DNA from: Qipengyuania marincola
GTDB lineage: Bacteria; Pseudomonadota; Alphaproteobacteria; Sphingomonadales; Sphingomonadaceae
Reading direction: 5' to 3'
Length of the DNA: 64,000 nt
NCBI RefSeq assembly: GCF_029688625.1
Contig: NZ_JARULC010000001.1
Coordinates: forward strand, 310,001-374,000
Shown here piece by piece: positions 24,134 through 46,618 of the stretch. Numbering within the stretch: position 1 is the stretch's first letter; the number at the start of each line of letters is the position of its first letter. Below the pieces are notes generated by a model, which was not told where the DNA came from, ran no database searches, and worked only from the letters and a program-made list of their open reading frames with translations. A program made the translations under genes and the position numbers.

Positions 24134-24155
24134 CGTATCCTCCTTTCCGGGACCA

Positions 24156-30292: not shown

Positions 30293-30375
30293 CGGTGGCC
30301 CGATAGCACTGGCGGCTTTACCGCGAAAGAACAATCTCGCCAGATGGAATGTGATTTCATAACAATACCATCGAT

Positions 30376-30759
30376 TTACTTCGACTCGCGAATGTTTTGA
30401 GCTGGTGATTGACCAAGCACACGACTGATCTCCGGCTCTATGTCCATCCGGGCGAATGCGCTTACATTCGAACGACCATTGTTTCCGATGGGAAGTCTGC
30501 CGGTGATGTTACCTATGGGAGCAAGGAAAAGCCGGAATATCTGGCCCCGAACCTCACGCCAATCATGCGTCTTCCTAGCAAGTTGTAGCATACGCCAATG
30601 AGAGACGCAGTGCGGCCCCAAGCGATCCTGGGCAACCACGTGGGCCCGCTCGAGATGGTGCCAGGCTTCCTCGAAATTCTGCTCATCCGAAGCCTTTGCT
30701 GCGCGTCGGTATTCCTCAGCGAGGAAGGCATCCCTGCTGGAAATAGCGCCGCTATCCAT
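30376..30759 (-). CDS. DUF3703-like protein
   Basis: The 127-residue helical protein has FEEAWHHLERAHVVAQDRLG and HWRMLQLARKTHDWREVRGQ, the typical DUF3703 phrases. The family is regularly found beside heavy-metal transporters but has no known function. It overlaps the upstream cation transporter by 8 bp. Confidence 0.8.
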   Translation of the reverse strand: MDSGAISSRDAFLAEEYRRAAKASDEQNFEEAWHHLERAHVVAQDRLGPHCVSHWRMLQLARKTHDWREVRGQIFRLFLAPIGNITGRLPIGNNGRSNVSAFARMDIEPEISRVLGQSPAQNIRESK

Positions 30760-31372
30760 GACCCAGTTCCTGACGTGCCTGCCCGAACACCTCGATGCTG
30801 CCCCACAGCGCTAGCCCGGCTATGATCGAGGCGACGAGCAGATCCGGCCACGCCTGTCCCGTTCCGAATACGCCGAGCGCGGCGCCCAGAACCGCAATAT
30901 TGCCGATGGCATCGTTACGTGAGCAGATCCATACCGACCGCATATTCGCATCGCCTTCGCGGAACCGGAAGAGCATGAGCGCGACGATCACGTTGGTCGC
31001 CAGAGCCAGCGTGCCGACCACTCCCATCGTTGCCGCCTCCGGATCGGCACCCGCCATCAATCCATAGATCGCATAGCCGATCACCCAGATGCCGAACGCC
31101 AGCATGGTCGCTGCCTTCACCACGGCAGCTCTGGCCCGCCATGCGAGCGCCATCCCGGCAACGCCGAGACTGATCGCGTAGTTCGCGGCGTCGCCGAAGA
31201 AATCGAGAGCATCGGCCTGGAGCGAACGGGAATCAGCAGCGACACCGGCCACCATCTCCACCACGAACATGGCCGCATTCGCAATCAGTGCGACCCATAG
31301 GACACGGCGCCAGCGCGGATCGTTGCGCGCGGCGGTGTGGCATTCCGGGGTCTGGCAGCAGGACTTCGCCAT
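30752..31372 (-). CDS. CDF-family cation transporter next to a CadR/PbrR-like regulator
   Basis: The 206-residue membrane protein starts at the ATG after AAGGAGAG. A Cys-rich N-terminus (MAKSCCQTPECH) is followed by SLQADALDFFGDAANYA and SVWICSRNDAIGN, the CDF metal-site helices. It lacks the long C-terminal domain. It is divergent from a MerR-family gene with a matching dyad promoter, so it is probably induced by Cd, Pb, Zn or Co. Confidence 0.88.
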   Translation of the reverse strand: MAKSCCQTPECHTAARNDPRWRRVLWVALIANAAMFVVEMVAGVAADSRSLQADALDFFGDAANYAISLGVAGMALAWRARAAVVKAATMLAFGIWVIGYAIYGLMAGADPEAATMGVVGTLALATNVIVALMLFRFREGDANMRSVWICSRNDAIGNIAVLGAALGVFGTGQAWPDLLVASIIAGLALWGSIEVFGQARQELGHG

Positions 31373-31412
31373 CCCACTCTCCTTGAAAGGTTCGAGTCGC
31401 AAGAACATATGC

Positions 31413-31436
31413 ACCTTGTAGCAACTACAAGGTCAA
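31413..31436 (-). promoter_or_regulatory. MerR-family operator/promoter of the cation transporter
   Basis: A perfect dyad ACCTTGTAG-CAA-CTACAAGGT occupies 31413-31433. On the minus strand TTGACC (31431-31436) is the -35, and a 19-bp spacer leads to CATATG. This is the MerR-type layout and closely resembles cadR/pbrR operators. Confidence 0.85.
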
Positions 31437-31439
31437 GCG

Positions 31440-31835
31440 ATGCGTATCGGCGAACTTGCGATAGCCACCGGCACAAAGGCGGAGACGATCCGCTATTATG
31501 AACGAGAAGGCATATTGCCGGCTGCGGATCGCACGGACAGCAATTACCGCGACTATTCGGACAATCACTTGGCAGCGCTTACATTCGTTCGACGCGCGCG
31601 CCAGCTCGGCTTCAGCATGGCGCAGGTGCGCGAACTGCTTGCGCTATCCGATCGCGTCGACAACCCGTGCCAAGTAGTCGATGAACTTGTTCGTGAGCAG
31701 CTGGAGGAGGTGGAACAGAAGATCCTAGATCTCTCCTCACTGCGGGATGAGCTGCGGCTTATGCTGCGATCATGCGAAGCGAACCGTATCGGCGAGTGTC
31801 GAATCGTCGAAAGCCTAGCGCGCCCCCTCAGATAG
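31440..31835 (+). CDS. MerR-family heavy-metal regulator (CadR/PbrR-like)
   Basis: The 131-residue protein has the winged helix MRIGELAIATGTKAETIRYY and a dimerisation helix. Three cysteines (NPCQVV, RSCEANRIGECRIVE) match the Cd/Pb/Zn-binding set of CadR, PbrR and ZntR. It is divergent from the CDF transporter across the dyad promoter. The exact metal is uncertain. Confidence 0.9.
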   Translation: MRIGELAIATGTKAETIRYYEREGILPAADRTDSNYRDYSDNHLAALTFVRRARQLGFSMAQVRELLALSDRVDNPCQVVDELVREQLEEVEQKILDLSSLRDELRLMLRSCEANRIGECRIVESLARPLR

Positions 31836-32013
31836 ATGACGAGTCGATGTTCCAAGAATGCTCGTATTCGTTCCTGTAGCGATACGGATCAGTCCCATTA
31901 AGCGTGGATAAGTCCCTGCGTTCAATAAGATCATCACGGGTTGTGCAGGGGCGCCGACTTGACGGTCAGTCTAAGCCGTAGGAACGTGGCAGCCTTGGGG
32001 GGCATTTCCGGAA

Positions 32014-33909
32014 GTGTGGTCAGATAATGAAACAGTCCGCGATCTAGTCAATTTCTCGCAGGTTGCTGAAATCGCGGCTGAGAGAATTGTCGGCGCTCGC
32101 GGAGAGCCGCTTTCTATGGGTATTTCCGGCGACTGGGGCGTCGGCAAATCCTCCATGATGAAGCTGTTGCGAAACTCGCTCGAGGGACGGGACGAGATCG
32201 ACGTCCGGTTCGTCGAGTTCAACGCCTGGCTCTATCAGAACTATGACGACGCACGAGCCGCGCTCATGGAAGCGATCACAGCGGCGGTGGTCGAGCAGGC
32301 GATCGAGAAGAAGGACGCACTCGCCAAGCCTGTGCTGGAAAAGGCCAAAGGGCTGCTCAAGCGAGTGAAGAAGTTGCGCCTCCTGGGCCTCGCGGGCTCG
32401 GCGGCGGTAGACTACTTCACCATGGGGACGATGACCCCCTTCGTGGCGGGCGGCATGGCAGCATTGAGCGGCCTGACGGACGGCAGCGTCACCGGCGAGG
32501 ACGTCAAGGGGGCGAAGGATTTCGTTGCAGAGGGCATCTCGGCCGGGAAATCTCTCATCGACGAGGAGAAAGACGGGGAGGGGACCGAACCAGCCGAAGA
32601 AACACCTCGAAAGGCCATTCAGGCGTTTCGGGATGATCTTGAAGCGACCCTCGAAGAGCTTGGCATCACACTGGTCGTTCTCATCGACGATCTCGACCGC
32701 TGCCTGCCCAAGACCGCCATCGCGACGCTCGAAGCCATGCGGCTGTTCCTGTTCCTCAAGCATACCGCTTTCGTCATAGCAGCCGACGAGGGCATGATCC
32801 GTCAGGCTGTGCGCTCGCATTTCGATGGGGCCGAACTCGACGATGATCTTGTCACCAATTACTTCGACAAGCTCATTCAACTCCCCATCCGCGTTCCCCC
32901 CTTGGGAACGCAGGAAGTGCGGGCATATCTGATGATGCTGTTCGTCGAGAACGAAGTGGACCTCGACGACGACACAAAGGAGGAAATGCGAGAAGCGGTC
33001 TGCAAACGACTGGGACGCTCGTGGGAGGGGGAGCGCGTCGACAAGGCGTTCATGCTCGAACAGATCGGGGAATGTCCACCAGGGCTCATCAACAGGCTCG
33101 CGCTCGCCGAGCGTATCGCACCGATCCTCACAACGTCACCCAAGATCCAAGGCAATCCCAGGCTGATCAAGCGGTTCCTCAACACGCTCTCGATGCGGAT
33201 GGCTATGGCGCGGATACAGGAAGTGAACGTCGACGAAGAGGTCCTGGTCAAGCTGCTCCTGTTCGAACGGTGCGGTGACAAGGACGCATACGCCGAGGTG
33301 CTGAGGGCCGTGAACGAAGCGGAAGACGGACACCCAACCTTGCTTGCCGACAAGGAGAAGAATGTTCGGGGCGAGGGCGATGCGCCCCTGGAGAAGCCCT
33401 GGAACGACCCCTTCCATTCCAACTGGCTCGCCCTCGATCCAACCCTTGCCGACCGCGATCTGCGCGGTGCCCTTTACGTCAGTAGGGAAACGCATCCGAT
33501 CATATCGCGAGCAGACGAGCTGTCATCGGATGCCAAGAGCGTGCTCGACATGCTCCTCAAGATGAATTCGGCCAGCACGACCGTGAACGAGGAGGTCGCC
33601 AATCTATCCACGCAGGAAATAGCGCATGTCACCGATGCGGTCCTCCTCAAGGCCCGCCAGGAAACTTCGTGGGGAACGCCGAACATCCTCAATGCCATGC
33701 AGACACTCGCCAACACATCCTCGGCTTCCGCATCCCTTGTCGTCGCGTTCTTCGCCGAGGTGCCAACCAGCCAGGTCAAGCCAGCGCTGGTCCCACGTCT
33801 GGCGAACACCGAATGGGGAAAGCAAGTGCTTACCTCGCTCAACGCCCGTGAAGACATGAGAGGTGCTGCGCACAAGGCGATCCAGGCAGCGATGAAGGGA
33901 GAGCGCTAA
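32014..33909 (+). CDS. qatA: QatA, KAP-family P-loop ATPase of the Qat antiphage system
   Basis: The 631-residue protein starts at GTG (MWSDNETVRDLVNFS), matching the family start. Walker A GDWGVGKSS lies near residue 40 and Walker B VLIDDLDRC near residue 222; a hydrophobic insert (residues 125-155) is typical of KAP NTPases. It is the first of four overlapping genes in the established qatABCD order. KAP ATPases are membrane-associated; the trigger in Qat defence is not known. Confidence 0.93.
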   Translation: MWSDNETVRDLVNFSQVAEIAAERIVGARGEPLSMGISGDWGVGKSSMMKLLRNSLEGRDEIDVRFVEFNAWLYQNYDDARAALMEAITAAVVEQAIEKKDALAKPVLEKAKGLLKRVKKLRLLGLAGSAAVDYFTMGTMTPFVAGGMAALSGLTDGSVTGEDVKGAKDFVAEGISAGKSLIDEEKDGEGTEPAEETPRKAIQAFRDDLEATLEELGITLVVLIDDLDRCLPKTAIATLEAMRLFLFLKHTAFVIAADEGMIRQAVRSHFDGAELDDDLVTNYFDKLIQLPIRVPPLGTQEVRAYLMMLFVENEVDLDDDTKEEMREAVCKRLGRSWEGERVDKAFMLEQIGECPPGLINRLALAERIAPILTTSPKIQGNPRLIKRFLNTLSMRMAMARIQEVNVDEEVLVKLLLFERCGDKDAYAEVLRAVNEAEDGHPTLLADKEKNVRGEGDAPLEKPWNDPFHSNWLALDPTLADRDLRGALYVSRETHPIISRADELSSDAKSVLDMLLKMNSASTTVNEEVANLSTQEIAHVTDAVLLKARQETSWGTPNILNAMQTLANTSSASASLVVAFFAEVPTSQVKPALVPRLANTEWGKQVLTSLNAREDMRGAAHKAIQAAMKGER

Positions 33910-34808
33910 TGGGAACGTCTGCATCAAGCAAGGGGCCTGGTTCGGGGCCCGATATCCCCATCGTGCCGCCTTGGGTAGATGATCCCCCGAGGCCAGCGCC
34001 CCAGCAGACACCTCCGAACGCGCAGCCCAATCCCCAGTCCCCGCCGGGCGGCCCGGGCACGCCTCCCGGGCAGGGGAACCCGAACCCGCCTCAGAGTCCT
34101 CAGCAACAGCCGCCTCCACCAGATCCATCACCACCCGGTCGTTGGCGCGGGACTCGAACTTCGCTCGGTAAATTCGCCGGCGGAGGGTCGGATCGGGAAC
34201 GCCATCTGAAGCGTGGCCTAGGTCACTATTCGAGAGGCGGGATGGGCGGAAGCCGGAACGCGGCACGGCGCCTCGGTGGGTCATCCCGGACGGCCAGCAG
34301 CCTCCATTCCGCACTGACTTCGCTTTCCTCCGGCGCTCCTCTCCCGCCAGATCTGGGCATCGACGCACAAACACTCGCCGGCCTGCCGCCGGATCAGGCG
34401 GTCGATGCGCTGATTGATGCGATCAGGCCAATCGATGGGACTCAGGACGCGGAGGCCACGCGGGATTCCGCGGCGCGCGCTCTATCGGAGGTCCTGGCAC
34501 AGAACCCGGACCTCACGAGCCTCACACCTGCACAGATCGACCAGGTAACGGCTTCGCTCCTCGGTCATGACGTCGCGCACAGGATCGAGCTCGACGTCGG
34601 CAAGGCGGTCATCGACAAGGCCCCCACCAAAGGGGAAGGCCTGGAGAGGTTACAGGAGATGAAGGATTACGTGCGCGAAGTCGTCGCAGCCGAATATGCG
34701 ACCGAGCGTGCCAAGGCGGGAACGGTCGGTAGGGCAGCCATCGAGCGCATCTCGAACAATGCCATCCAGCAGACCTTCGAGGTATTCGAGGACGATGCCG
34801 ACCTATGA
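33909..34808 (+). CDS. qatB: QatB, accessory protein of the Qat system
   Basis: The 299-residue protein begins MGTSASSKGPGSGPDIPIVP, the recognisable QatB start. A long Pro/Gln/Asn-rich disordered stretch (residues 20-75) leads into a helical C-terminal domain. Its ATG overlaps the qatA stop. Its biochemical role is not established. Confidence 0.88.
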   Translation: MGTSASSKGPGSGPDIPIVPPWVDDPPRPAPQQTPPNAQPNPQSPPGGPGTPPGQGNPNPPQSPQQQPPPPDPSPPGRWRGTRTSLGKFAGGGSDRERHLKRGLGHYSRGGMGGSRNAARRLGGSSRTASSLHSALTSLSSGAPLPPDLGIDAQTLAGLPPDQAVDALIDAIRPIDGTQDAEATRDSAARALSEVLAQNPDLTSLTPAQIDQVTASLLGHDVAHRIELDVGKAVIDKAPTKGEGLERLQEMKDYVREVVAAEYATERAKAGTVGRAAIERISNNAIQQTFEVFEDDADL

Positions 34809-36085
34809 CAACCATCTCTTGCCTTCCCGAGGACATGGCCGACCTGCCCGGTTCGGATGTCCGGTTCGACCTCTATTCCAATTCGCGTATCGGCTCGAGA
34901 GGGCGCGTCGGAGACCTGGTGCCAGGCCGTTTGAGACGGCAAGGCTTGCGTCCCTCGACGCTGGCATGGGATTTCACATCCTTCGCGCTTGCCGCGGTGG
35001 CGGCAGACGAAGCGGTATCGCGCGAACGCAGCCCGGACGGCTGGACGCGTGAGATCGAGCTCACTGTGGCGGTAACGAATCCCGACCTCTGGAAAACGCA
35101 GCGCGGACGCCTGACCGAAGCACTTCGATTCTTGTCGGGTGACATCTGGTCGCTCGAGTTCGTAGGGCACGGCATCGTTCCGCCTGGTCGCGGCAAGGAA
35201 CGGGTGCGCTCTGAAGATCTCGTCTGCCTACTGTCCGGCGGCATGGACAGCCTGGTGGGTGCGATCGATGTCGTGAACGAAGGCCGCACGCCGCTGTTCG
35301 TCAGTCAGATCGCCAAGGGCGACTCCGACACCCAGAAGTGGTTCGCGCAGTCGATATCGTCGACGAGCCTGCACCTCCAAGTGAACCACCATGCCCGGCC
35401 TCCCGACCGCTCGGAGCGCTCGCAACGTGCGCGTTCACTCGCATTCCTCGGCTTTGGCGTTCTGGCCGCCACCTGTCTCGCGAAGCACCGTGACGGATCC
35501 CCTGTCGAATTGCGAATCCCCGAGAATGGCTTCATCAGTCAGAACGTGCCTCTGACGCCCATGCGCACCGGATCCCTCAGCACGAGGACCACGCATCCGT
35601 ATTTCCTGCGCTTGATCCAGGATACACTCGATGACGTCGGGCTGCGCATCAATCTTAACAATCCCTACGAGACCGCCACGAAAGGCGAAATGCTCGTCGG
35701 TTGCGCAGACCAAGGTCTTCTTTCCGGCTTGGCCGGGGCCTCTACCAGTTGCGGACGCTATTCGAGAACCGGGTTTCAGCATTGCGGACGTTGCGTGCCA
35801 TGTCAGGTGAGGCGGGGTGCCTACCTCGCCTGGGGCAATCCCGACGACACGACGAAGGGATACAAATACGAGGACTTGAGCCTGAATGACAGCAAACACG
35901 CACGGTTCGACGATGTGCGTTCGGTTGCCATCGCGATCGAGACGGTGCGCGCCAGCGGCATCGACGAACTCATCGGGGGCGCCATGAACAGTCAACTGCT
36001 CGGCAAGGTCCAGCGCTATCGGGACGTTGTCGACCGTGGTATCGCCGAACTCGCAGCGCTGCACGCGAGCCTACGTGTTCCATGA
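34805..36085 (+). CDS. qatC: QatC, QueC-like enzyme of the Qat system
   Basis: The 426-residue protein has a PP-loop ATP motif, LLSGGMDSLVGAIDV, near residue 142 and a C-terminal Cys cluster (FQHCGRCVPCQVRRGAY) like the zinc site of QueC. QueC makes 7-cyano-7-deazaguanine; in Qat a modified base or a protein modification is suspected. The extra N-terminal 130 residues and the operon context separate it from housekeeping queC. ATGA overlap with qatB. Confidence 0.92.
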   Translation: MTTISCLPEDMADLPGSDVRFDLYSNSRIGSRGRVGDLVPGRLRRQGLRPSTLAWDFTSFALAAVAADEAVSRERSPDGWTREIELTVAVTNPDLWKTQRGRLTEALRFLSGDIWSLEFVGHGIVPPGRGKERVRSEDLVCLLSGGMDSLVGAIDVVNEGRTPLFVSQIAKGDSDTQKWFAQSISSTSLHLQVNHHARPPDRSERSQRARSLAFLGFGVLAATCLAKHRDGSPVELRIPENGFISQNVPLTPMRTGSLSTRTTHPYFLRLIQDTLDDVGLRINLNNPYETATKGEMLVGCADQGLLSGLAGASTSCGRYSRTGFQHCGRCVPCQVRRGAYLAWGNPDDTTKGYKYEDLSLNDSKHARFDDVRSVAIAIETVRASGIDELIGGAMNSQLLGKVQRYRDVVDRGIAELAALHASLRVP

Positions 36086-36831
36086 TCGATTTCCATTGCC
36101 ATCTCGACCTCTATCCCGACCCCCGTGCAGTGCTCGATGGCATCGATGCCAGAGGCACTTACGTGCTTGCCGTAACGACCACTCCCAAGGCTTGGCGTGG
36201 CACCACGAAGCTCGTCGGTGATCGCAAGCGGGTGCGGGTCGCGCTCGGGCTCCACCCCGAGGTCGTCGCACAACGCCATCAGGAAGTAGCGCTCCTCTGC
36301 GGCCTGCTACCGGAAACGCGATATGTCGGCGAGATCGGGCTCGACGGAAGCCCGGCCCATCGGCAATCGCTAGAGCTGCAGGTCAAGGTGTTCGAAAGGA
36401 TCCTTTCGGAGTGCTCACGCCTTGGCGGCCGCTTGATAAGCATCCATTCGCGAGGGGCCGCTTCAAGGGTGCTGGATGCGTTGGATCTGCACCCGGGAGC
36501 CGGGACCCCCATACTGCACTGGTTCAGCGGGACGACGCGGGAATTGGAACGTGCCGTTAGCCTGGGATGCTGGTTCTCCATCGGTCCGGCCATGCTTCGA
36601 TCCAAAAGAGGACGCGAGCTCGCTTCGGCGATGCCCCTGGACCGGGTCCTCACGGAAACCGACGCACCATTCACGCGCGTTGGCGATGATCCACTCATGC
36701 CTTGGCAGGCCTATGATTGCCTGGCCGGACTCGAAGAGGTCCGAGGTATCGATCGGATCGAGCTGGGCAAACTCGTCGCAGACAATCTCCGCAGAGCAGT
36801 CCAGATCGAGCCGGAACTCTCCCCCGTGTAA
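36082..36831 (+). CDS. qatD: QatD, TatD-family nuclease of the Qat system
   Basis: The 249-residue TIM-barrel metal-dependent hydrolase has FHCHLD (residues 4-9), GEIGLDG near residue 84, SIHSRGA, HWFSG and the closing ETDAPF. These are TatD DNase metal ligands. It is translationally coupled to qatC (ATGA) and completes qatABCD. Confidence 0.93.
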   Translation: MIDFHCHLDLYPDPRAVLDGIDARGTYVLAVTTTPKAWRGTTKLVGDRKRVRVALGLHPEVVAQRHQEVALLCGLLPETRYVGEIGLDGSPAHRQSLELQVKVFERILSECSRLGGRLISIHSRGAASRVLDALDLHPGAGTPILHWFSGTTRELERAVSLGCWFSIGPAMLRSKRGRELASAMPLDRVLTETDAPFTRVGDDPLMPWQAYDCLAGLEEVRGIDRIELGKLVADNLRRAVQIEPELSPV

Positions 36832-36890
36832 TCGGCATGTGAACCGAGACGCTTCAGAGCGCCCTCAATCGCTTTCAACTCTTGTTGTTG

Positions 36891-37160
36891 TCAATGCTCG
36901 TCCAAACCGGCGAGATCCTGTCCGTCGCTGACGGATTCGCCCCACTCGACGTTGCTCCCACCGGTCCGACCGGTGATGGCGAGGTGGGTCATGTGGGTGG
37001 TGTCGGTCGCACCGTGCCAATGCCGGACGCCAGGCTGGACACGAACCGCGTCTCCCTAGCAGATCCGTTCGACAGGTCCGCCCTCGGCCTGGGTCCAGCC
37101 GCAGCCGCGCGTCACGAAGAGGTTCTGCCCTGCCGGGTGAACTAGCGCGAATGGTCGCAG
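36891..37160 (-). pseudogene. Cupin-domain protein remnant with in-frame stop
   Basis: On the minus strand FALVHPAGQNLFVTRGCGW and EGGPVERIC match the first cupin motif. A TAG follows (37056-37058), and the same frame then continues [19 protein letters not shown] and [12 protein letters not shown] to a TGA at 36891. This is a single-cupin protein of the HPLGQ/HWHGA type, truncated at its start and interrupted. Confidence 0.75.
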
Positions 37161-37310
37161 CATCGAGGCTGAAGGAAAACTCCGCATTCCCCGATTTGGA
37201 CTGCGTCGCAGAGCAGAGAGGCTCATCGCGGATTGGGGCCGGCATGTCCGCGCTACCCGCAACCAACGACAATGACTCAACCATCAACCTCAATTAAGAA
37301 GGAACAAAAC

Positions 37311-38330
37311 ATGAACAACAATGACCTTCCGGATGTCGATCTTTCTGGAATCGCGCCAGAGCTGCGTCCGGTCGTAAGGCGGCGATTACAGGCGATCAGG
37401 AAGTTCGAGAGGGAACCCGGACGCGCCCACGCACAAGAACTCGCGCGCGACCTGGGTCTCGGGACCGCGCAGTTCTACAACCTGGTGAAAGCCTGGCGGA
37501 ACCTTCGCGATCCACAGCGACTGTCCGGACAATCGCGCCCGCGCAAACGGACCGTCGATCTCGAACCGGGTCAGGTGCAGCTGATCGACAAGACGATCTC
37601 GGCAATGCCGGACAGTGCGCCCGACGAGATCGTGAAAGCGGTGATCGAAAGGGGCGCGCTGGACGATGTCGAATTTCCGGGTGCCGAAAGGATCAAGCGA
37701 TATGTCATTGCAAACAGCGCTCCGCGCCTGTCGGCCGAGATCACCGCGCTCGGGGACCTCATCGTTGAGCACACCGTGCTCGACTTGCCTATCGCCTTCC
37801 GCGGTGACGCGACGTCAAGACCGACGGCCACGATGATGTTCGACACAAGCGATGCGACCCTGTGCGGTTTGACGCTCTCAGCGGGAAAGCCGACCGTGGC
37901 CGACATCGCCAAGGCAATCATGCGATGCCTGCCTGCCTCGCCGCGGATGTCGAACAAGGCCGATACCGCTCGTATCGTGATCCCGACGACAACCGATGGA
38001 CAGTGGGACGATCTGTGCGGTCCGCTCCGCAATGCCGGGATCATGGTCTCCACATATCGACCAGGACCATACGGTCACGGTCGCTGCACGGCGACCATCT
38101 TCGGACGGTTGGCCAATGGGATCACCTTCCGACCCCGTCTGGTCGAGGTCGAGGGGGACCGGAGGAAAATGCGGGGCCACACGGCCTTCGAGCCGCTAAC
38201 GCCTGAGGAAGGCGAGAAGCTCGTATCGACCAGGCTTGGCCTGGAGCAGAGGACAGGGATCCTTGGGGGCATCGCTCAGCATCGCCTGACACAGCTACGC
38301 AGCACACTATGCTTGCTCAGCCATCGATAG
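37311..38330 (+). CDS. Degenerate transposase-fold protein A (HTH plus RNase H-like domain)
   Basis: The 339-residue protein starts at the ATG after AAGGAA. The N-terminal HTH includes LGLGTAQFYNLVKAWRN. From about residue 150 a pattern like the DDE domain of the resident TnsB appears: VLDLPIAF has Asp158 where TnsB has its first catalytic Asp, but RIVIPTTTDG has Pro225 where TnsB has Asp, and YGHGRC has Arg258 where TnsB has Glu. A catalytically dead transposase relative is inferred. It overlaps tail-to-tail by 14 bp with a paralogue. Confidence 0.7.
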   Translation: MNNNDLPDVDLSGIAPELRPVVRRRLQAIRKFEREPGRAHAQELARDLGLGTAQFYNLVKAWRNLRDPQRLSGQSRPRKRTVDLEPGQVQLIDKTISAMPDSAPDEIVKAVIERGALDDVEFPGAERIKRYVIANSAPRLSAEITALGDLIVEHTVLDLPIAFRGDATSRPTATMMFDTSDATLCGLTLSAGKPTVADIAKAIMRCLPASPRMSNKADTARIVIPTTTDGQWDDLCGPLRNAGIMVSTYRPGPYGHGRCTATIFGRLANGITFRPRLVEVEGDRRKMRGHTAFEPLTPEEGEKLVSTRLGLEQRTGILGGIAQHRLTQLRSTLCLLSHR

Positions 38331-39471
38331 CATCTCCGATATCGAGCAGAAGACCGTCGACGGCTGACAGGACAGCAGTCATCCGACCTTCGCGAACCCC
38401 CGAGCCCAAGATATCGGCAGCCTGTAACGCTGCCAAGACAGGTTCGTTGTGCCGCAGAACCTCCCGATCCCAGTAGGCACCAGCCTGCGACGGATCCAGC
38501 TCGACAACCTTACGGCGCAATACGGCTGGGTCGGCAGCGATTGACAGCGTCTTGCGTGGTGCGAGCGGCATGCGACCTATGCGGGGGCCGATCAGCTGAA
38601 CCAGCTCCTGCCCGAAGCCGTAAGTGCCTGGGCGGCGGAGATCGAGCTTGCGAGTAACTTCGCGAAGCTCCCGGGAATCCTCGCTTCCCGTCGTTCCCGG
38701 AGGGAGCATGAAGTCGAGGTCGCATGCTTGCCCGGGTTCGAGGGGACCATCGACCTTGTTGCGAGTAACGAACCTGCGGGCTTCCTCGACAGCAGCGCGT
38801 TCAATCTCAACAGCGGTTTCCAGCCGATTCAGAGCGCTTCCGAGGACAAGTCCACTCCCGGCATCGAGCACGACCGCAACTACGGCAAGCTGATCATTGC
38901 CTGCCAGCAGTATCGAGACGGCGGTCAAGTCGATCACCAGGCGTCGGGCGAAGTTATTGCGTAGATACTCGCTATCCCGGGACAAGGTCCGCCGCTCATG
39001 ACGAACGAGCCGTTCAGCCCACTGGAGTCGTATCTGTTCGGTCTTGCCGACGATCTCCTCGTTTCCCACCGGATCTTCGATCAGTTTACGGGCGATGTCG
39101 AGGTTCCTGCTCGTCATCCCATCTTCGATGATGAGTGATCGTGCCAATGCGCGAAGTGGAGAATCCAGAGCACTCTTCATCCTGCGCGGCTTTCGCCGCG
39201 CATTGGGGATGATGCCCTCGAGTGACCTTTCCTGCCAAGCCTGCCTCAGATTGTAGAAGGCAGCCCGACCAAGGCCGATGCCCTCAGCGAGCGGGGCGAG
39301 TGGCTCACCATTCTGAGCTCGCCATACTGCGTTCAGCCTTGCGACCACCTCCGCTCGACGATCCGGCAAAAGGCCGTCGAGAATAACGCGATCCCGTTGC
39401 GGGATCCCGTCAGGCCATACCGCGCGCAAGAGCCGATCCTCATCCTCTTCACGCATGCTCTCTGTCGACAT
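38317..39471 (-). CDS. Degenerate transposase-fold protein B, paralogue of A
   Basis: The 384-residue protein, ATG at 39471 (in-frame TTG two codons earlier), shares with protein A the HTH phrase IGLGRAAFYNLRQAWQE, the strand RLVIDLTAV (Asp181 at the first catalytic position) and RRPGTYGFGQELVQ near the third. The second catalytic position reads FMLPPG, with Pro instead of Asp, and the third is Gln followed by Glu. It is thus another probable inactive DDE-fold protein, convergent with A inside the Tn7-like element. Confidence 0.7.
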   Translation of the reverse strand: MSTESMREEDEDRLLRAVWPDGIPQRDRVILDGLLPDRRAEVVARLNAVWRAQNGEPLAPLAEGIGLGRAAFYNLRQAWQERSLEGIIPNARRKPRRMKSALDSPLRALARSLIIEDGMTSRNLDIARKLIEDPVGNEEIVGKTEQIRLQWAERLVRHERRTLSRDSEYLRNNFARRLVIDLTAVSILLAGNDQLAVVAVVLDAGSGLVLGSALNRLETAVEIERAAVEEARRFVTRNKVDGPLEPGQACDLDFMLPPGTTGSEDSRELREVTRKLDLRRPGTYGFGQELVQLIGPRIGRMPLAPRKTLSIAADPAVLRRKVVELDPSQAGAYWDREVLRHNEPVLAALQAADILGSGVREGRMTAVLSAVDGLLLDIGDAIDG

Positions 39472-39581
39472 GGGCAAACGTTAACCATCAGCCAGAGAGA
39501 TGTCTACTATTATCGGATTGACTTTCCTGATCGCCGACCATACATGGGCAGATGTCTAGTTTTAAGAGAGTGATTTCGATG

Positions 39582-39863
39582 ATCCGTTTGTCCTGTTCGA
39601 GAAAGCCCTTGACGGCGCTCGCCGACCCGCTCCGCGGACGCCGACGGAGCAGCGACGATGTCACGCGATCGGGCATGCCGATGAGGGAGCCGAACCAAGC
39701 GGGCGATCGTGATGGGTGCCAGCCTCCCAACGAGCGTGAGGTCCTCGTCGGCATCGTCGCGTGGCTGTCCACCGAATGCTGGGAGGATCCCGCGATGGAC
39801 CGTGCGACGATCTATTCCCTTGTCCGGAAACTCAATGAGAGGAGCCTTGGCCATGGATCGTGA
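39582..39863 (+). CDS. Small ORF at the head of the tns operon
   Basis: About 93 residues from an ATG 8-9 bp after AGAGAG; the start is uncertain (ATGs at 39552 and 39675 are alternatives). The C-terminal half reads as a plausible helix (VLVGIVAWLSTECW and AMDRATIYSLVRKLNE). It overlaps the next ORF by 11 bp. No family recognised. Confidence 0.45.
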   Translation: MRLSCSRKPLTALADPLRGRRRSSDDVTRSGMPMREPNQAGDRDGCQPPNEREVLVGIVAWLSTECWEDPAMDRATIYSLVRKLNERSLGHGS

Positions 39864-40128
39864 CCATACCGACGATCTCGACGATCAGGATCGTCGCTCC
39901 GCGACCGCGAGCATGATGAAGCACGACACCGGAGGAGCCTCCGAGCAGCCGACGATCATCGGTGAGCAGAAGACCGCCCGTCATGATGCAGGCTACAGCA
40001 GTCTTCCGCGCATGCGCGATCGCCATGCCCTTCCTTCACCCGCCGCCAGCCGCCTTCCGGCATGGCGCCCGCGTTCCTACCGGGGTGTCCCGCATACCGG
40101 GCCCGGTGCTTCGGGAGACAATCTGTGA
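39853..40128 (+). CDS. Small basic ORF just before tnsA
   Basis: The 91-residue product is acidic at its start (MDRDHTDDLDDQDRRSA) and Arg/Pro-rich at its end. It overlaps the preceding ORF by 11 bp and the tnsA GTG by 4 bp (GTGA), which favours co-translation. It could instead be a non-functional leader. No family recognised. Confidence 0.45.
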   Translation: MDRDHTDDLDDQDRRSATASMMKHDTGGASEQPTIIGEQKTARHDAGYSSLPRMRDRHALPSPAASRLPAWRPRSYRGVPHTGPGASGDNL

Positions 40129-40961
40129 GCTCTCCCTTCGACACTCACCCGGACAGGATCCGAATACCGCTTTCGCAGAAGGTGGTGCACGGGCTCGAAC
40201 TGGATCGGGAACTCCGCGACGACACGATCATCCCCGATCGCACACTCCTCGTCTCCGACGGGGAGGCGGCACTGAAAGGTGACGAACGCCTCATCAGCAT
40301 GGGAGAGATGATCGTGGAACGGGACGGCGGATCGCTCCGGACCTTCGCCGGCAATCTGGCCCACGAGAACGGGTGGTGGCCGAGCTTGAAGAGGAGGCGC
40401 CTTCAGCACTGGGAAGGGGAAACGCAACGCCAGGCGCTGATGGCGCTCGAATGCGATTTCTCGGTCGAATGGGCGCAGAGCGAGCCGTGTCTCCTGCGCT
40501 TCCCGATCGGTGACGAATGGTTCGAATGGTATGCCGATATCCACGTCAGTCGGTTCGATGCTCCCGAAGAGCTGTGGGAGATCAAGAAGGACGAGAGGCA
40601 GCTCGAGGATCCGCGCTATCGCCTCAAGCTCGCAGGAGCGCGTGAGATCTGTCGTCGGATCGGTTGGCGTTTCCGTCTGGTGATGGCCGACGAGATCGCC
40701 ATCAACCGGCACCACCGCGACAACGTCGAACTCTTCGCTTCGCGTCGGTTCGTCACCATCGGTCCGGAGCACATGAGACGGTTCGAGGACTTCGCGCTGC
40801 GTAACGGAACCGAGACCACATACGGCGAACTCGCGAACATCATCGAACCGACCTGTCCCGCGCGAGGGGCGGCCATTATTCAGGGCCTCACCATTCGCCG
40901 CAGGATCGACATCGAACTGCATGATTTCCTCACCAACCGCACTCCGCTGCGCATCCATTAA
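40125..40961 (+). CDS. tnsA: TnsA-like endonuclease subunit of the heteromeric transposase
   Basis: The 278-residue protein starts at GTG, with GGGAG 7 bp upstream. A restriction-endonuclease core is visible: an early Glu in HWEGETQRQALMALE, Asp near residue 137 in WYADIHVSRF and Lys near residue 154 in WEIKKDE, the E-D-K layout of TnsA. A C-terminal winged-helix-like part follows (ETTYGELANIIEP). TnsA nicks the 5' ends so that the element is cut out rather than copied. It precedes tnsB and tnsC as in Tn7. Confidence 0.88.
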   Translation: MSSPFDTHPDRIRIPLSQKVVHGLELDRELRDDTIIPDRTLLVSDGEAALKGDERLISMGEMIVERDGGSLRTFAGNLAHENGWWPSLKRRRLQHWEGETQRQALMALECDFSVEWAQSEPCLLRFPIGDEWFEWYADIHVSRFDAPEELWEIKKDERQLEDPRYRLKLAGAREICRRIGWRFRLVMADEIAINRHHRDNVELFASRRFVTIGPEHMRRFEDFALRNGTETTYGELANIIEPTCPARGAAIIQGLTIRRRIDIELHDFLTNRTPLRIH

Positions 40962-40973
40962 CGGAGCTAATAG

Positions 40974-41147
40974 ATGAAGCATTCCACTCAGCATCAAGGT
41001 GAACCGTCCAATGCTGCTGCCATCATGACGATGCGTGCAAGGCCGAAGCTCCGGGTCCTCGATGACCGTGGGCGCCCCGGCATTCCGCGCGCCATCGTCG
41101 TGATGGATAGCTGGTCCCGAAAGATCCTCGGGTTCTGTCTCGAATGA
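40974..41147 (+). CDS. 57-residue ORF resembling a fragment of a DDE transposase domain
   Basis: The ORF starts at the ATG 8 bp after GGAG and ends at TGA. Its last third, AIVVMDSWSRKILGFCLE, resembles the second strand of the TnsB catalytic domain (TFAFDVHSRAILAWVI) of the next gene. It may be a relic of an earlier tnsB or a small regulator that mimics it. Confidence 0.5.
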   Translation: MKHSTQHQGEPSNAAAIMTMRARPKLRVLDDRGRPGIPRAIVVMDSWSRKILGFCLE

Positions 41148-41298
41148 CCTGACGATCTCCGCCGAATCGGCGGCGCGCATCACGAAATAGGAGGACGGTC
41201 AGCGTCCTCCCTTCCGGGATCGCAGGCCCGGCAAAACCGGGACCGTGCCTGCGGTCGGCCGAAGGCCGACGCACGCCCTCTTCACAAGGAGAAAACGA

Positions 41299-43641
41299 AT
41301 GAGCCGCATCCCCATGAACAGCCAGCTGCCGCCCTACAACCTCCCGGTCGGCACGCTCATCAACATCGACGGGCGTCCGCATCAGCGACCGACCCGGACG
41401 ATCCCCGGACGGCTCGCGATGCTCGACTGCCACACGGGTCAACCCTTCGTGGTTCCCGATGTGAAGCATGGCACTGCCCTACCGACCGAGGACGACTACG
41501 ATGACCTCCTGCGCGAAGGCCGCCTGGAGATCGTCCTGCCCGAAAATGTTGTCGCATCTCGTGCACTGGCTGCGACGGCCGAATGGGACATGTCCGACCT
41601 GGAAGCGATCGATCCCGGGATCCGCAAGACGCTCGCCCAGGTGGTCCTGCTCGACGACAACGGCGTGAAGAACGGGATAGGGGCCATCGAGAAGGCGCTG
41701 GAGAAGCTCTGGACGCCCGAACTCCAGGAGGAATTCGGCAAGCACGACCACCCGGCCACGATCAAGCGCTGGCGGGCCGAACGGGGCGAACCGGGAAACC
41801 GGCCGCCGTATCTCCTCGTGCGTCTCGGCGGCAAGGTCCCCCGCACACCCCACGACGAAGACGTGCCGCTGGAGATCCGAATGAAGCACGCGCTGGAGCG
41901 GAAATCGACGCGCGGCCCCATGACCGCCCTCTACGCGAGAGCCGCCACGGAGCTGAAGGAGGTCAATGAAGGGAAGTCGTTACTCTACCCCAAGCCCGAA
42001 AAGCCCTATCCGATCTTCAGCTACGACACGTTCCGCCGGGACTGCATCAAGGTGGAGGGCTCCGAGACGGTCGAGGCCAAGGACGGCGAGAAGGCCATGG
42101 AGAACACCATGCGTGGCGGCGGCAGACCGCTCACTGCTAGCCGCATCCTCGAAAAGGTCATCATCGATCACACTCGGCTCGATGCCTTCCTGGTCATCGA
42201 TCCCGAGCGTGACATAGTCGGGGGGCGTCCGTGGATCACCTTCGCCTTCGACGTGCACAGCCGCGCGATCCTCGCATGGGTCATCACCTTCCGGTCGCCG
42301 AGCTACTGGACGGTCTGTGAGACCCTGCGCCGGATGAACCTCCCCAAGAAGCCGCCCCCGGTGGAAGCGGAGCGTTACCCGATCCTGAAGCGGATCTGCG
42401 GAAAGCCCGGAGAGCTGATCCTCGACAACGCAGCGGAATTCACCAGCCACGGTCTCGAGGACGCGGCCAAGAGCGGTTCGTTCTCGGTCCGCTTCTGTCC
42501 GGTCAGGCGGCCGCGCTACCGCGCCATCGGGGAGCGAGCGATCAAGACCGTCCAGGAGAAGATGCTGGAGAACCTGCCCGGACATTCGATGACCATCGAC
42601 TACAATCGGCGCACGGAGCATGATGGCGAGGAACTGGCCGTCGCGACGCCGAACGAGATGGAAGCGCTCGCGAACAAGGCGGTCGCCGAATACCACACCG
42701 AACCCCACGATGGCCTCAGGAACCAGCAGCCGGCGCTCGTCTTCCAGCGGTCGGCCAACAAGCACGGCATCGACGTGATGGGGGACGTGCGCCGCTTCAC
42801 TCTGGAGACCTACGATACCAAGCTCAACGTCAAGGTCACGAAGAGCGGCGTCAGGATCTTCGACGGCCTGCGCTACTTCTCCCAGGAAGGTTGCGCGCGC
42901 CTGATCGACAACAATCTCCGGTTCGAACCCCGTCGCCAGGCGCGTGTGGACGCGGTGGTCCACACCAAGATCAAGTTCGACCCCGAGAACATCGCCGTCA
43001 TCCACGCGTGGGACAAGACCACGCGGAGCTACGTCGAACTCAAGTGCCAGGACGAAACCTACGCTGACGGAATGCCGCTCTGGTTCCACAAGGACCTGGT
43101 CGATCTCGCGAGGCGCGAAGCCACCGCTCCCCCGGAATCGAGCGCGCCCAAGCGTTCGAAGAGGAAGAAGGGCAACGGCGTGGAGACGGAGAGCGAGAAC
43201 GGACTGCGTCGCCTGTCCGAGTTGGACGGGGAGATGGCGCCCCGCGGCTTCAACACCGAGGCCGAGCGCCTCGCCGCCCGCGCGCGGCGAATCGAGGCCA
43301 TCCGGGCCATCGCGCCGGGCGCCCGTGCCAGGGAACGGAAGACACTGGCGCAGCTCTACGACATCCCGCGCGTGCGGGCCATCACCGGCAATCTCGTCAG
43401 CCTGGACACCGACTACTCGAAGACCGTCACCACGGACGACTTCATCGCGCACGACGTGTCGGCTCTGACCAACCTCGACGCGGAGATCCTCGCCGACAGG
43501 CCCGACAAGTCCGGGCTGCCCAAGCAGCGCAAGGCGCGCAACGATCGCCGCAGAGGCGGGCAGGCCGGTGACGGCGCGAAGGGCGCGCCGCAGCAGGATC
43601 AGATCGTGACGCCGAACCGCCGTCGTCGGGCACGCGGTTGA
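41299..43641 (+). CDS. tnsB: TnsB-like DDE transposase
   Basis: The 780-residue transposase starts at the ATG after AAGGAG. The catalytic triad is intact: Asp290 in VIIDHTRLD, Asp376 in LILDNAAEF and Glu412 in AIGERAIKTV, exactly DD35E. N-terminal DNA-binding domains and a basic C-terminal tail (KQRKARNDRRRGGQ), probably the TnsC contact, flank it. TnsB binds the transposon ends and joins the 3' ends to the target. It is followed 47 bp later by tnsC. Confidence 0.95.
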   Translation: MSRIPMNSQLPPYNLPVGTLINIDGRPHQRPTRTIPGRLAMLDCHTGQPFVVPDVKHGTALPTEDDYDDLLREGRLEIVLPENVVASRALAATAEWDMSDLEAIDPGIRKTLAQVVLLDDNGVKNGIGAIEKALEKLWTPELQEEFGKHDHPATIKRWRAERGEPGNRPPYLLVRLGGKVPRTPHDEDVPLEIRMKHALERKSTRGPMTALYARAATELKEVNEGKSLLYPKPEKPYPIFSYDTFRRDCIKVEGSETVEAKDGEKAMENTMRGGGRPLTASRILEKVIIDHTRLDAFLVIDPERDIVGGRPWITFAFDVHSRAILAWVITFRSPSYWTVCETLRRMNLPKKPPPVEAERYPILKRICGKPGELILDNAAEFTSHGLEDAAKSGSFSVRFCPVRRPRYRAIGERAIKTVQEKMLENLPGHSMTIDYNRRTEHDGEELAVATPNEMEALANKAVAEYHTEPHDGLRNQQPALVFQRSANKHGIDVMGDVRRFTLETYDTKLNVKVTKSGVRIFDGLRYFSQEGCARLIDNNLRFEPRRQARVDAVVHTKIKFDPENIAVIHAWDKTTRSYVELKCQDETYADGMPLWFHKDLVDLARREATAPPESSAPKRSKRKKGNGVETESENGLRRLSELDGEMAPRGFNTEAERLAARARRIEAIRAIAPGARARERKTLAQLYDIPRVRAITGNLVSLDTDYSKTVTTDDFIAHDVSALTNLDAEILADRPDKSGLPKQRKARNDRRRGGQAGDGAKGAPQQDQIVTPNRRRRARG

Positions 43642-43688
43642 ACCTTCACCCCGCCCGCGCGAGCGGGCGGGGACATCAGGAGATTATC

Positions 43689-44759
43689 ATGTCCTCTCAC
43701 ATGGATGAAGATTACCGGGACGATCCCGACCACGATGAAGCCGCAATCGAGACTCTCGCTTCTGCCATCACCGAAAGAGATGCGAAGGCGCAGCTGCGGA
43801 AGCTCATAGCGACACGCCGCGTTGCCGTGCGGGCGATCCACCTCCCGTTCGCGGCCCAACAGGATCTCGAGGATGCGCTCGATGAGGCCTGGTGTGGTGC
43901 GGTCGAACTGAGAAACGCTGGGCTGCCGCAACCCGCCGTGCCCATCCTCGCCGACAGCTTCTCCGGCAAGAGTTCAGGGGCGAGGAACTACGTCAAGAAG
44001 GTCATGGGTAGCTTGGACGCCGGACCAGGAACCATCCCCGTGGTCTATGCCAAACTCGATACCGACGGCACGGTCGGCTCGCTCGCGGCCGACATCCTGC
44101 GCGGCTGCGGAGAAAAGCGACCGAACAGCCTTTCCGGCGAGAAGCGGTGGGATCGAGCGAGACAGGCCATCCGCAAGAGGGGCGTGTGCCTCCTCATACT
44201 GGACGAATTCCAACGAGCAGGTCGTCGTCCTACGATCAGTCCGGTGATCGCCGGGAAACTCCTCGACATCGTCGACGACGGCGATTGTGCGTGCGCCTTC
44301 CTCGGAAAGACCACCGCAGAAGATGTCTTCGCGTCCTGTCCGGACCTCAAGAACAGGCTCGACTCGCCCGTGAAAATGCCGAGGCTGCGTTGGATCACCG
44401 ACAGCGCCGAATTCATGGCGTTCGCCGAGGGCTTCGATCAGGCGCTGGTCGATGCCGATATCATCGATCTGAAATCCGGTCTCGGCGATGCGGACACGGC
44501 GCAGCTGTTGCTCGAAGCCTCCAACGGACTCATCGGCCAGTTCAGCCGAATCATCGAGACCGCCGTCATCGCGATCACGCGCGAGGGTCAAAGGGTGATC
44601 ACCCGACAGGATCTTTCCGATGCCGTCGATGACTGGGCCATCGCCAACGGGCGCATCGGATACAACCCATTCACGCAGGCAAGAGAAGAGCGATCCGCAG
44701 ACAAGGAGCTCGACGGAGCCGAGAACGCTGAGCCGGTCAACGACGAGGGCGAGGGATGA
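43689..44759 (+). CDS. tnsC: TnsC-like AAA+ ATPase regulator of transposition
   Basis: The 356-residue ATPase starts at the ATG 6 bp after AGGAG; earlier in-frame codons overlap tnsB. A variant Walker A (ADSFSGKSS) lies near residue 88 and Walker B LLILDEFQRAG near residue 170. TnsC/TniB proteins form filaments that link the target selector TniQ to the transposase. It overlaps tniQ by 4 bp (ATGA). Confidence 0.93.
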   Translation: MSSHMDEDYRDDPDHDEAAIETLASAITERDAKAQLRKLIATRRVAVRAIHLPFAAQQDLEDALDEAWCGAVELRNAGLPQPAVPILADSFSGKSSGARNYVKKVMGSLDAGPGTIPVVYAKLDTDGTVGSLAADILRGCGEKRPNSLSGEKRWDRARQAIRKRGVCLLILDEFQRAGRRPTISPVIAGKLLDIVDDGDCACAFLGKTTAEDVFASCPDLKNRLDSPVKMPRLRWITDSAEFMAFAEGFDQALVDADIIDLKSGLGDADTAQLLLEASNGLIGQFSRIIETAVIAITREGQRVITRQDLSDAVDDWAIANGRIGYNPFTQAREERSADKELDGAENAEPVNDEGEG

Positions 44760-46618
44760 AGCCGCTCGGTTCCTCCGAAGACCAATTCAGTTTCTACGAC
44801 GATGAGTCTTTCAATGGTGCGGTTGCGCGCTGGGCGGCTGATGCATGGATCGAGCGGATGCTGGACGTCACCCGCGTTGCGGGGGTCGAATGGGGGCATG
44901 TCCAGACGGCGGCGGCGGCGGACGAGAAGGACATCCGTGCCCTCGCTGCGGAAATGGAGGTCGATCCCGACGACCTGCTCAAGCGGGCGATGCCGAATAT
45001 CGGGGCCGGAGCGGGCAACCGCGGCTTCACGATGTTCAACGGGCTGATCCTCCCGGCCACGCTGATAGAGAAGAAACGTCGTCGGTTCGCACCTGCCGCT
45101 CTTCGCGCGGCACCCTATCACCGAGCGCTCTGGAACATCCGTTTGTTCCCCTGCTGCCTCGAGACCGGCCAGATTCTTCTGGACCGATGTGGGAGCGAGG
45201 ACTGCGAAGGCAGGGCGCTGGGCTGGAGACACACTCTGGGTATCGACAGCTGCGAGTTCTGCATGAGCGATCTGACCGCTTCGGAGACGGCGGAAATCCC
45301 TGTCGATCTGGTCGCACAGCTTCGCACCGTCGCTGATCTGTTCAGTCCAACGAGACGTGTCTCTGCACTTTCCTCGCTTCCTGCCGCAATCGCATTGAAT
45401 GACGGTCAGGTGGCCATCGATCTTCTTCTTCGCCTTCTGCCGGTGGTCGATCCCTCGCTGCGTGCACTTCGCAATCGTCTCCAGGACGCCGATCCTCTCG
45501 GTCTCGCAAAGGCGGTGGCCGCGAGCTGGAAGATGATGCGGAACTGGCCCCAGGGCTTCTCGGACCTCGTCACGCCGAAGGTCGCAGGCCGCGCGGAGAG
45601 GCACCGCGACGGCAACAGCGGCGAGACCATCCGCTTCCTGAAGACCGGTCAGTCCAGTGTTGTCTCGGCAGCGCTCGCAGGGATCATCGGTGATCTTCGC
45701 AACGAATTCGACCTGAGAGGGGAAAAAGCGGAAGAGATCGCGCAGGGAATTCTCCCGATAAAGACGGTCGGGAGGATCTTGGGAATGGGGACCGCCGAGG
45801 TCGCGCAATTGCGCCGGGCCAAAGTTCTAAGCGCCAGGCTTGTTCTCGATGAAATGGGCAGGCTTCAGCCCATGTTCGATCGGCACGAGATCGAAAACAT
45901 CGCGAAGGGCATATCCTCGCGGCTGGGCGTCGACTCCCTGGCCTGGAAGCTGGGAATGTCGCGCAATGGCGCCGAGCAGTTGGTCGAAACTGGTCTCCTC
46001 GAACTTCTCCACCATCCCTTTTTCCTCGCAAGGTATGGCATACCGCAAGTGACTGCAGCGTCGATCGATGCGGTGCTGGGTCGTCTCGATCGAGCTGCGG
46101 TCCTCGCAGCAGAGGACAAGCTGATCCCGCTTTCCACCGCCATCAAGGTCATCGGCGGAAAGCCGAAGCCTTGGGGCGCCATCTTCGGCAAGCTGCTTGA
46201 TGGATCCCTTCCGTGTCGGATCGAGCCGGGCGCGAAAACCCCGGTCCGGCGAATCTTCATCAGCCGAAAGGATCTGTCGATCATCGAAGGGTTGGGTGCG
46301 GTAAGGAATACACCGAACAGGATCGCGTTCTCGGACCTGCTCTCCAAAGCCGATGCCGGCGAAATACTCAATGTCGGTCCTCATGAAGTGACGGAACTGT
46401 TCGCGGACGTCCCCACAAGACAGGGGGAACGAGCCAAGTGCCTTCCGATGGCAGATGTCATGAGCTTGGGTAGTCGACACATCACGTCGGCCGAACTCGG
46501 CCTGCGGCGCAATGTCAGCGTGCAGAAAGCATATCGCGATGCGCTGCTGTCAGGAGTGCCCTATCTCGGCCCGGCCGGCTTCTGCCGAGCATCCGCCGTT
46601 GCCAAGTTTCTTATATAA
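44756..46618 (+). CDS. tniQ: TniQ/TnsD-family target-site selector
   Basis: The 620-residue protein has an N-terminal TniQ domain and a zinc-finger set (FPCCLETGQ, RCGSEDCEG, SCEFCMSDL, residues about 132-170), followed by a long C-terminal DNA-binding region. The length is that of TnsD-type sequence-specific selectors rather than the short CRISPR-associated TniQ. The element sits beside tRNA-Arg, so this protein probably recognises that gene. It ends 176 bp before the right terminus. Confidence 0.92.
   Translation: MKPLGSSEDQFSFYDDESFNGAVARWAADAWIERMLDVTRVAGVEWGHVQTAAAADEKDIRALAAEMEVDPDDLLKRAMPNIGAGAGNRGFTMFNGLILPATLIEKKRRRFAPAALRAAPYHRALWNIRLFPCCLETGQILLDRCGSEDCEGRALGWRHTLGIDSCEFCMSDLTASETAEIPVDLVAQLRTVADLFSPTRRVSALSSLPAAIALNDGQVAIDLLLRLLPVVDPSLRALRNRLQDADPLGLAKAVAASWKMMRNWPQGFSDLVTPKVAGRAERHRDGNSGETIRFLKTGQSSVVSAALAGIIGDLRNEFDLRGEKAEEIAQGILPIKTVGRILGMGTAEVAQLRRAKVLSARLVLDEMGRLQPMFDRHEIENIAKGISSRLGVDSLAWKLGMSRNGAEQLVETGLLELLHHPFFLARYGIPQVTAASIDAVLGRLDRAAVLAAEDKLIPLSTAIKVIGGKPKPWGAIFGKLLDGSLPCRIEPGAKTPVRRIFISRKDLSIIEGLGAVRNTPNRIAFSDLLSKADAGEILNVGPHEVTELFADVPTRQGERAKCLPMADVMSLGSRHITSAELGLRRNVSVQKAYRDALLSGVPYLGPAGFCRASAVAKFLI

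Follow-up and report, generated by a model that had tools for sequence, protein, structure and literature searches.

What is the role of two convergent genes that sit directly ahead of the transposition genes of a bacterial mobile element, and whose products look like catalytically dead relatives of its transposase? The question arises from a stretch of 64,000 nucleotides of the Qipengyuania marincola genome (contig NZ_JARULC010000001.1, positions 310,001 to 374,000), referred to below as the window, in which two such proteins, A and B, had been predicted. Tn7-like elements carry much defense and resistance cargo and are being turned into genome-writing tools, and the natural restraint of their jumping is known for few groups. 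A pair of dead TnsB relatives that is inherited together yet independently of the transposase would represent a new way for an element to turn its own enzyme into a switch.

The gene pair and its carrier

The carrier is a Tn7-like transposon in which genes for TnsA, TnsB, TnsC, and TniQ are all present (Table 1), the Pfam matches of its TnsA, TnsB, and TniQ proteins lying below the curated cutoffs. Its terminal inverted repeats (TGTGCGGT from 15529, and the inverse up to 46794) are bordered by the 5-bp target duplication TCCAT (15524–15528 and 46795–46799), and a tRNA-Arg gene (15446–15522) adjoins the element. Empty sites are present at six loci (L081 to L086) of genus relatives, which lack the stretch between tRNA-Arg and a gene that by eye resembles a NUDIX gene. 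The A/B pair is located between the QatABCD genes and the tnsA-tnsB-tnsC-tniQ genes (40062–46618), and its two members overlap tail to tail by 14 bp (38317–38330). The coordinates, convergent orientation, overlap, and placement upstream of tnsABC-tniQ given in the original prediction are all correct.

The end of the tRNA-Arg gene (15504–15528) recurs with 24 of 25 bp as a direct repeat at 46895–46919, outside the right end of the element. This copy indicates that the insertion site has an older history too, and a similar double tRNA end is present at L083. Searches found homologs of the small open reading frame at the head of the tns operon in L046 and L011, and one in L010 was recognized by eye; these three elements carry pairs related to that of the window.

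Table 1. Features of the window that are relevant to the A/B pair
Feature	Position	Strand	Remarks
Whole Tn7-like element	15529..46794	.	31,266 bp; ends TGTGCGGT / ACCGCACA; beside tRNA-Arg
QatABCD defense cargo adjoining the pair	32014..36831	+	Cargo, outside the cassette
Protein A gene	37311..38330	+	339 aa; catalytically dead TnsB/TniA paralog; HTH domain, second DNA-binding region, RNase H-like domain
Protein B gene	38317..39471	-	384 aa; catalytically dead TnsB/TniA paralog; convergent with A
Putative operator repeat 1 (ATGTCTACTATTA)	39500..39512	+	Between B and tnsA
Possible tns promoter (TTGACT, 17 nt, TACATG)	39518..39546	+	Between the repeats, by eye; absent from consensus scan
Putative operator repeat 2 (ATGTCTAGTTTTA)	39552..39564	+	52 bp from repeat 1
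Small ORF before tnsA	39552..39863	+	Start possibly 39579; no Pfam family
tnsA	40062..40961	+	Profile matches below curated cutoff; true start possibly further in
tnsB, active-type DDE transposase	41299..43641	+	D290, D376, E412 of the 780-aa form
tnsC (TniB/AAA)	43638..44759	+	Pfam match
tniQ/tnsD-like, 620 aa	44756..46618	+	Weak Pfam match, E 0.011; homologs at same place in relatives

Relationship of A and B to TnsB and TniA

Homology was assessed with clean profiles of A proteins only (17 rows) and B proteins only (19 rows), and an iterative profile that had absorbed TnsB was set aside. In profile-profile comparisons the two families match each other (probability 99.8, E 7.6e-28), which bears out the original view that they are paralogs. 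Both also match 12 other TnsB/TniA proteins (A, 99.5 and E 2.5e-23; B, 98.6 and E 8.9e-16) and do so better than they match TnsBs of the resident type (15 rows; A, 96.8 and E 2.2e-10; B, 72.4 and E 3.3e-5). As a negative control, the same profiles reach probabilities of only 0.7 and 0.1 against TnsC. The match is colinear over about 300 columns that cover the HTH and RNase H-like regions, and this significant, colinear homology places A and B in the TnsB/TniA superfamily.

Plain profile searches likewise connect A with a TnsB of another lineage (L095, 4e-28) and B with a transposase of TniA size (L100, 6.9e-20). At an E value of 0.01, the A or B profile matches 17 of 47 TnsB frames, the window's own TnsB not being one of them. 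Against solved structures, the A-only profile has TnsB-family chains as its seven best matches, the top one at E 2.4e-6 and one of them titled only "Integrase", and TnsB was not found with the B-only profile. For the two families, Pfam returned only HTH_23, HTH_28, HTH_29, and HTH_32 (E up to 0.01). Such matches occur in a single A protein of 17 and, for any one family, in no more than 4 of the 19 B proteins, and those of the window's A and B lie below the cutoffs. Given that the Pfam matches are limited to these four families, A and B do not belong to the MerR, Arc, or Xre families. NCBIfam and PADLOC gave weak matches at most, and PADLOC gave none.

In a phylogenetic tree, built by a quick method and containing long branches, a branch with a support of 100 separates all 39 A/B rows from 36 transposases, and the 22 resident-type TnsB rows group together (support 99). 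A and B form two separate groups with supports of only 58 and 79. The tree speaks against the idea that the pair is a recent copy of the resident TnsB. Comparison of the window with L046 yielded dN/dS values of 0.27 for A, 0.115 for B, 0.088 for TnsB, 0.096 for TnsC, and 0.153 for TniQ. Both genes thus look to be under selection for protein function, and with such values the pair is unlikely to be a relic.

AlphaFold models of the two proteins, built with only two outside proteins in the alignment, are weak (mean pLDDT 50.8 for A and 47.0 for B). For both, Foldseek nevertheless ranked TnsB and MuA chains at the top. With a second structure aligner, the B model matches TnsB (Z 10.2, rmsd 4.4, 155 residues) and MuA (Z 9.4), and integrases or transposases occupy all 50 rows among the matches listed. 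The A model matches TnsB through its HTH part alone (Z 7.5, middling by the scale of the tool; rmsd 2.8, 62 residues). The fold is RNase H-like, and structures that lack this fold, which would have spoken against the original prediction, were not what the comparison returned. Profile comparisons, the structure matches of the A-only profile, and the structure comparison together support the proposal of a dead TnsB fold.

TnsB and TniA transposases of the Tn7 and Tn402 types, which resemble A and B in the HTH and RNase H-like regions and supply the best structure matches, are about 550–830 aa long and possess a catalytic triad. In contrast, the window's A and B are about 340–385 aa long, have lost the triad, and occur as two convergent copies. 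As judged from lengths and alignment ends, both lack the C-terminal region of TnsB beyond the RNase H domain, a region that includes the contact with TnsC.

The intact DDE triad of an active TnsB/TniA enzyme is found in neither protein, whereas D, D, and E are all kept in 15 of 15 TnsB proteins. In A, Glu153 occupies the column of TnsB's first catalytic Asp, which is Asp290 in the 780-aa form. Asp158, originally taken for this residue, is off register and is ruled out by the alignment. Of the 17 members of the A family, 6 have Asp and 3 have Glu at the Glu153 position. The corresponding assignment for B, Asp181, holds, with Asp in all 19 aligned B proteins. Also as first proposed, the second position is Pro in both proteins. 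Read by eye from the alignments, Pro225 of A is Pro in 6 of 17 and Asp in 1 of 17 members, and Pro257 of B is Pro in 7 of 19 and Asp in 1 of 19. The predicted loss of the third residue is likewise seen, since Glu is present in 0 of 19 B proteins and in neither register considered for the window's A. A retains no conserved catalytic residue, and B keeps the first Asp (D181) and has lost the other two. Comparison of sequences in this way shows that A and B are homologs of TnsB/TniA that lack the catalytic triad. The first Asp of B (codon 181, 38929–38931) is invariant in 19 of 19 proteins despite the loss of the triad.

Distribution and exchange of the pair

P0001 matches 21 of 397 family genomes and P0002 matches 5 of 196 order genomes, the window's genome being included in each count, and two plasmids match both. 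Across the class, the B profile found matches in 5 of 385 genomes, two of them from the window's family. In a third, G742, one of two hits is a 571-aa frame that encodes a TnsB-like transposase, and the last two give short matches to the HTH part. Pattern-based scans of viral contigs gave no match.

The survey of other Tn7-like elements that had been suggested as a check revealed the same pair in the same order. Of the 25 loci where A or B was called, 21 show A forward, B reverse, and TnsA and TnsB forward, beside different cargo, and forward TnsC follows in 20 of these 21 (L060 ends at a contig border). The exceptions are L012, with both genes on one strand, L059, with A only, and L051 and L062, with one gene each. 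A clear TnsB is encoded in 24 of the 25 loci (in L062 the TnsB match is only 27 bits), so the pair does not occur mostly away from transposons. Some loci were treated separately. A weak A hit in L063 was not confirmed in a later scan and was dropped, L106 and L107 are repeats of L047 and L010, and L055 and L056 are near-copies. The A gene of L011 has one in-frame TAG, and only its 256-aa piece was used for gene-order and distance comparisons. L064 was found through its TnsB, not through the pair, and is the one locus that a scan of genome contigs with TnsB as query yielded.

Viewed from the transposase, 24 TnsB loci in the 397 family genomes score at E < 1e-60, a cutoff chosen after inspection of the list. 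Both genes are present in 19 of these, A only in one (L059), and neither in four. Two of the latter (L088 and L091) are cut off by contig borders, IS-like genes (as judged by eye) take this place in L089, and L090 has tnsA, tnsB, tnsC, and tniQ without the pair. Thus, L090 and L059 indicate that the pair is not always needed. Among 47 matches of other TnsB types, 14 loci were fetched (two on contigs of at most 6 kb), and none has separate A and B genes. A fifteenth, L051, had been fetched earlier and has one A-like frame of 566 aa.

Pairwise distances at 17 loci separate two sets of genes. A and B are correlated (rho 0.69, 0/2000 permutations), as are TnsB with TnsC (0.71), TnsB with TniQ (0.62), and TnsC with TniQ (0.48; each 0/2000). 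In comparison, A or B against TnsB, TnsC, or TniQ gives rho values of −0.13 to 0.01. Because A and B are correlated with each other and neither is correlated with the Tns proteins, the pair behaves as a two-gene cassette that is exchanged at one fixed place. The trees agree: the B of L064 groups with those of L054 and L055 and its TnsB with that of the window, and the B proteins of L010 and L011 group with that of the window while their TnsBs fall elsewhere. The AU test rejects a single clade of window, L046, and L064 in the B tree, and likewise one of window, L046, L010, and L011 in the TnsB tree (forced-agreement AU p 8.9e-46 and 1.6e-45; these groups were defined once the initial tree was known). 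Alignment A3 omits the A proteins of L011, L012, L013, L059, L061, and L064, and alignment A2 omits the B proteins of L053 and L064. These data show that the A/B cassette has been exchanged between transposons.

In DNA comparisons, only the element stretch 37299–46796 of the window is matched by L046 (19.9 kb compared), and similarity between L064 and the window begins only at tnsA (40159). Because of this junction, the stretch between B and tnsA that bears the repeats described below lies on the pair's side. Such comparisons assign the pair to the core of the element, not to its cargo. L054 shares the Qat cargo (window 31818–36976; L054 14737–19896) at 93% DNA identity and has a TnsB only 20% identical, which indicates recent cargo exchange between distant elements. 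Metal-efflux cargo (RND, HlyD, OEP, cation efflux, MerR) at 25120–31839 is shared at 89% DNA identity with L011 (12764–19501), a different transposon in the same genus.

In L064, genes for an ATPase and an HNH protein (3667–6288; Septu-like by eye) lie between A and B, which indicates that cargo can land inside the pair. Two tandem A-B pairs are present in L048 (8850–13115), the outer B being left as a remnant of 91 aa, and this locus is perhaps a cassette replacement caught halfway.

Repeats ahead of the tns operon and the proposed role of the pair

The stretch between B and tnsA of the window contains two putative operator repeats around a possible promoter that was recognized by eye; a consensus promoter scan of the stretch found none. 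The repeats ATGTCTACTATTA and ATGTCTAGTTTTA have no further match with up to two mismatches in the 64 kb. Among 21 loci, direct repeats at p<0.05, spaced 44–57 bp apart, occur between B and tnsA in 7, and not in the other 14. Such spaced repeats are enriched at this place. Three control stretches gave 1/21, 0/21, and 1/21 loci, the region upstream of A gave 0/19, and 2 of 37 stretches upstream of tns operons without the pair reach this threshold. The seven loci are not all independent because L054 and L055 are close relatives.

GTCYAS pairs were observed, among the same 21 loci, in the window, L046, and L010 (52 bp), L009 (50 bp), and L053 (57 bp), where 0.002 are expected per 370-bp region at spacings of 50–54 for a motif chosen after looking. 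L046 and L009 have this pair and miss the p<0.05 threshold. Other repeat types are TTCTAMATGCCAAYGC (44 bp apart; L054 and L055), TTTTGGATCG (53 bp; L064), and AAACCCACTACAGCC (56 bp; L061), and in L011 a repeat seen by eye has a spacing of 22 bp, outside the tested range. With repeat strings picked by eye at nine loci, and the first piece of the split L055 TnsB (that of L056 is split as well), repeat type correlates with A (rho 0.67, 8/3000) and B (0.62, 7/3000) and not with TnsB (−0.10, 2097/3000). When L046 and L055 are left out, the values drop to 0.45 for A (118/3000) and 0.41 for B (144/3000). At these nine loci the repeat sequence goes with the type of the pair rather than that of TnsB, although it could do so by hitchhiking, as the repeats lie beside B.

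Non-catalytic DNA-binding proteins that are encoded divergently from tns, together with paired repeats at this place whose type goes with that of the proteins, point to transcriptional control with autoregulation. The best explanation, to which we assign roughly an even chance, is that A and B are transposase-derived regulators without catalytic activity that bind operators at the tns promoter and are swapped as a cassette. The two proteins would jointly regulate their own transposon by binding the direct repeats that flank the promoter upstream of the tns genes. This region doubles as the upstream region of B, and the pair would thereby set the level of both the transposase and B. Binding of the repeats by A, B, or both is inferred, repression would be the presumed effect, and immunity between elements may follow from it. 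A, B, and the operator region would then form a unit that passes between transposons in the manner of a temperate phage's immunity region, and by this likeness a resident pair of matching type could shut off newly arriving elements that have its operator type. A fuller version is only a tentative possibility, and rather an unlikely one. According to this version, the two proteins would jointly recognize an operator code, repress transcription from the tns promoter, and keep out incoming elements of the same code, and such exclusion would favor swapping of the cassette by selection, as with phage immunity regions. With such a pair, rivalry between transposons could be put to the test in a reporter strain.

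There are precedents for regulators that are related to, or are shortened forms of, the transposase of their own element, namely the Mu repressor with MuA and the Inh protein of Tn5. The Mu repressor shares only part of the DNA-binding region of MuA, and Inh arises from the transposase gene itself. Element-encoded regulators of the MerR, Arc, and Xre families are already described, as is the dead recombinase TnsF for targeting (PMC9938897, PMC12150760, PMC10293859). CvkR of V-K CAST represses cas12k and tnsB by binding an inverted repeat, and CvkR and Arc-type repressors are, like A and B, element-encoded and associated with transposon genes. Unlike A and B, these are MerR or ribbon-helix-helix proteins that are not transposase-derived (PMC9938897). 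VpxR of a Vibrio CAST is an element-encoded, autoregulated Xre-type protein that its report likens to phage lambda CI, and it is a single gene whereas A and B are a pair of another family (PMC12150760). TnsF of Tn6022 resembles A and B as a catalytically dead recombination enzyme re-used by a Tn7-like element, and differs in having a tyrosine recombinase fold, in choosing targets with TniQ, and in being unpaired (PMC10293859). The available text of a survey of Tn7-like cargo mentions no such pair (PMC8649781). Paired dead TnsB proteins appear in no title or opening lines returned by a literature search that covered mainly openly available journal papers.

An unlikely alternative is that A and B work in the transposition complex, where, bound to the ends or to TnsB, they would serve as subunits without catalysis or would hold TnsB back in a dominant-negative manner. 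The DNA-binding and RNase H regions that they have in common with TnsB, together with absence of the part beyond, would suit this role, and shortened transposases of Tn5 indeed inhibit through mixed complexes. However, partners of TnsB or of the ends are expected to co-evolve with TnsB, and the pair shows practically no correlation with it. The AU tests also support swaps between very different TnsBs, and this independence argues against an obligate role in the complex. Moreover, the promoter repeat, a putative A/B site, is unmatched elsewhere in the window at up to two mismatches and hence absent from the ends.

We consider it improbable to a greater degree that the pair selects target sites or provides target immunity. 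Tn7-like elements do recruit selectors derived from enzymes, TnsF being an inactivated tyrosine recombinase (PMC10293859). Yet the window already encodes a 620-aa TniQ/TnsD-like protein, and TniQ correlates with TnsB and TnsC rather than with the pair. In addition, L010 has a window-like pair and ARAGORN detected no tRNA in its 19.5 kb, the left end possibly lying outside. No TniQ or tyrosine recombinase fold was found for A or B among the Pfam and structure matches listed, which for structures involve weak models and may have missed such a fold. Just as doubtful is the view that the pair is cargo with its own function, such as defense, that sits beside tnsA by chance. Exchange independent of the tns genes is also typical of cargo, and defense genes adjoin the pair, but position and orientation are fixed in 21 of 25 loci whatever the cargo. 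Separate A and B genes are also missing from the 14 loci of other TnsB types, the fifteenth having the single A-like frame, and PADLOC found no match. Among the roles offered in the original prediction, regulation fits best, and binding of transposon ends, target immunity, and a separate system fit less well.

The A proteins of L013 (8070–9191) and L061 (10269–11075) consist, by eye, of two HTH units without an RNase H part, as one would predict were DNA binding the activity that counts. In L008 (22226–22747), L049 (4407–5225), and L060 (3323–3685), the interval between B and tnsA contains short frames that match the TnsB profile weakly (33, 47, and 26 bits, respectively) and are possibly a separate copy of one TnsB domain.
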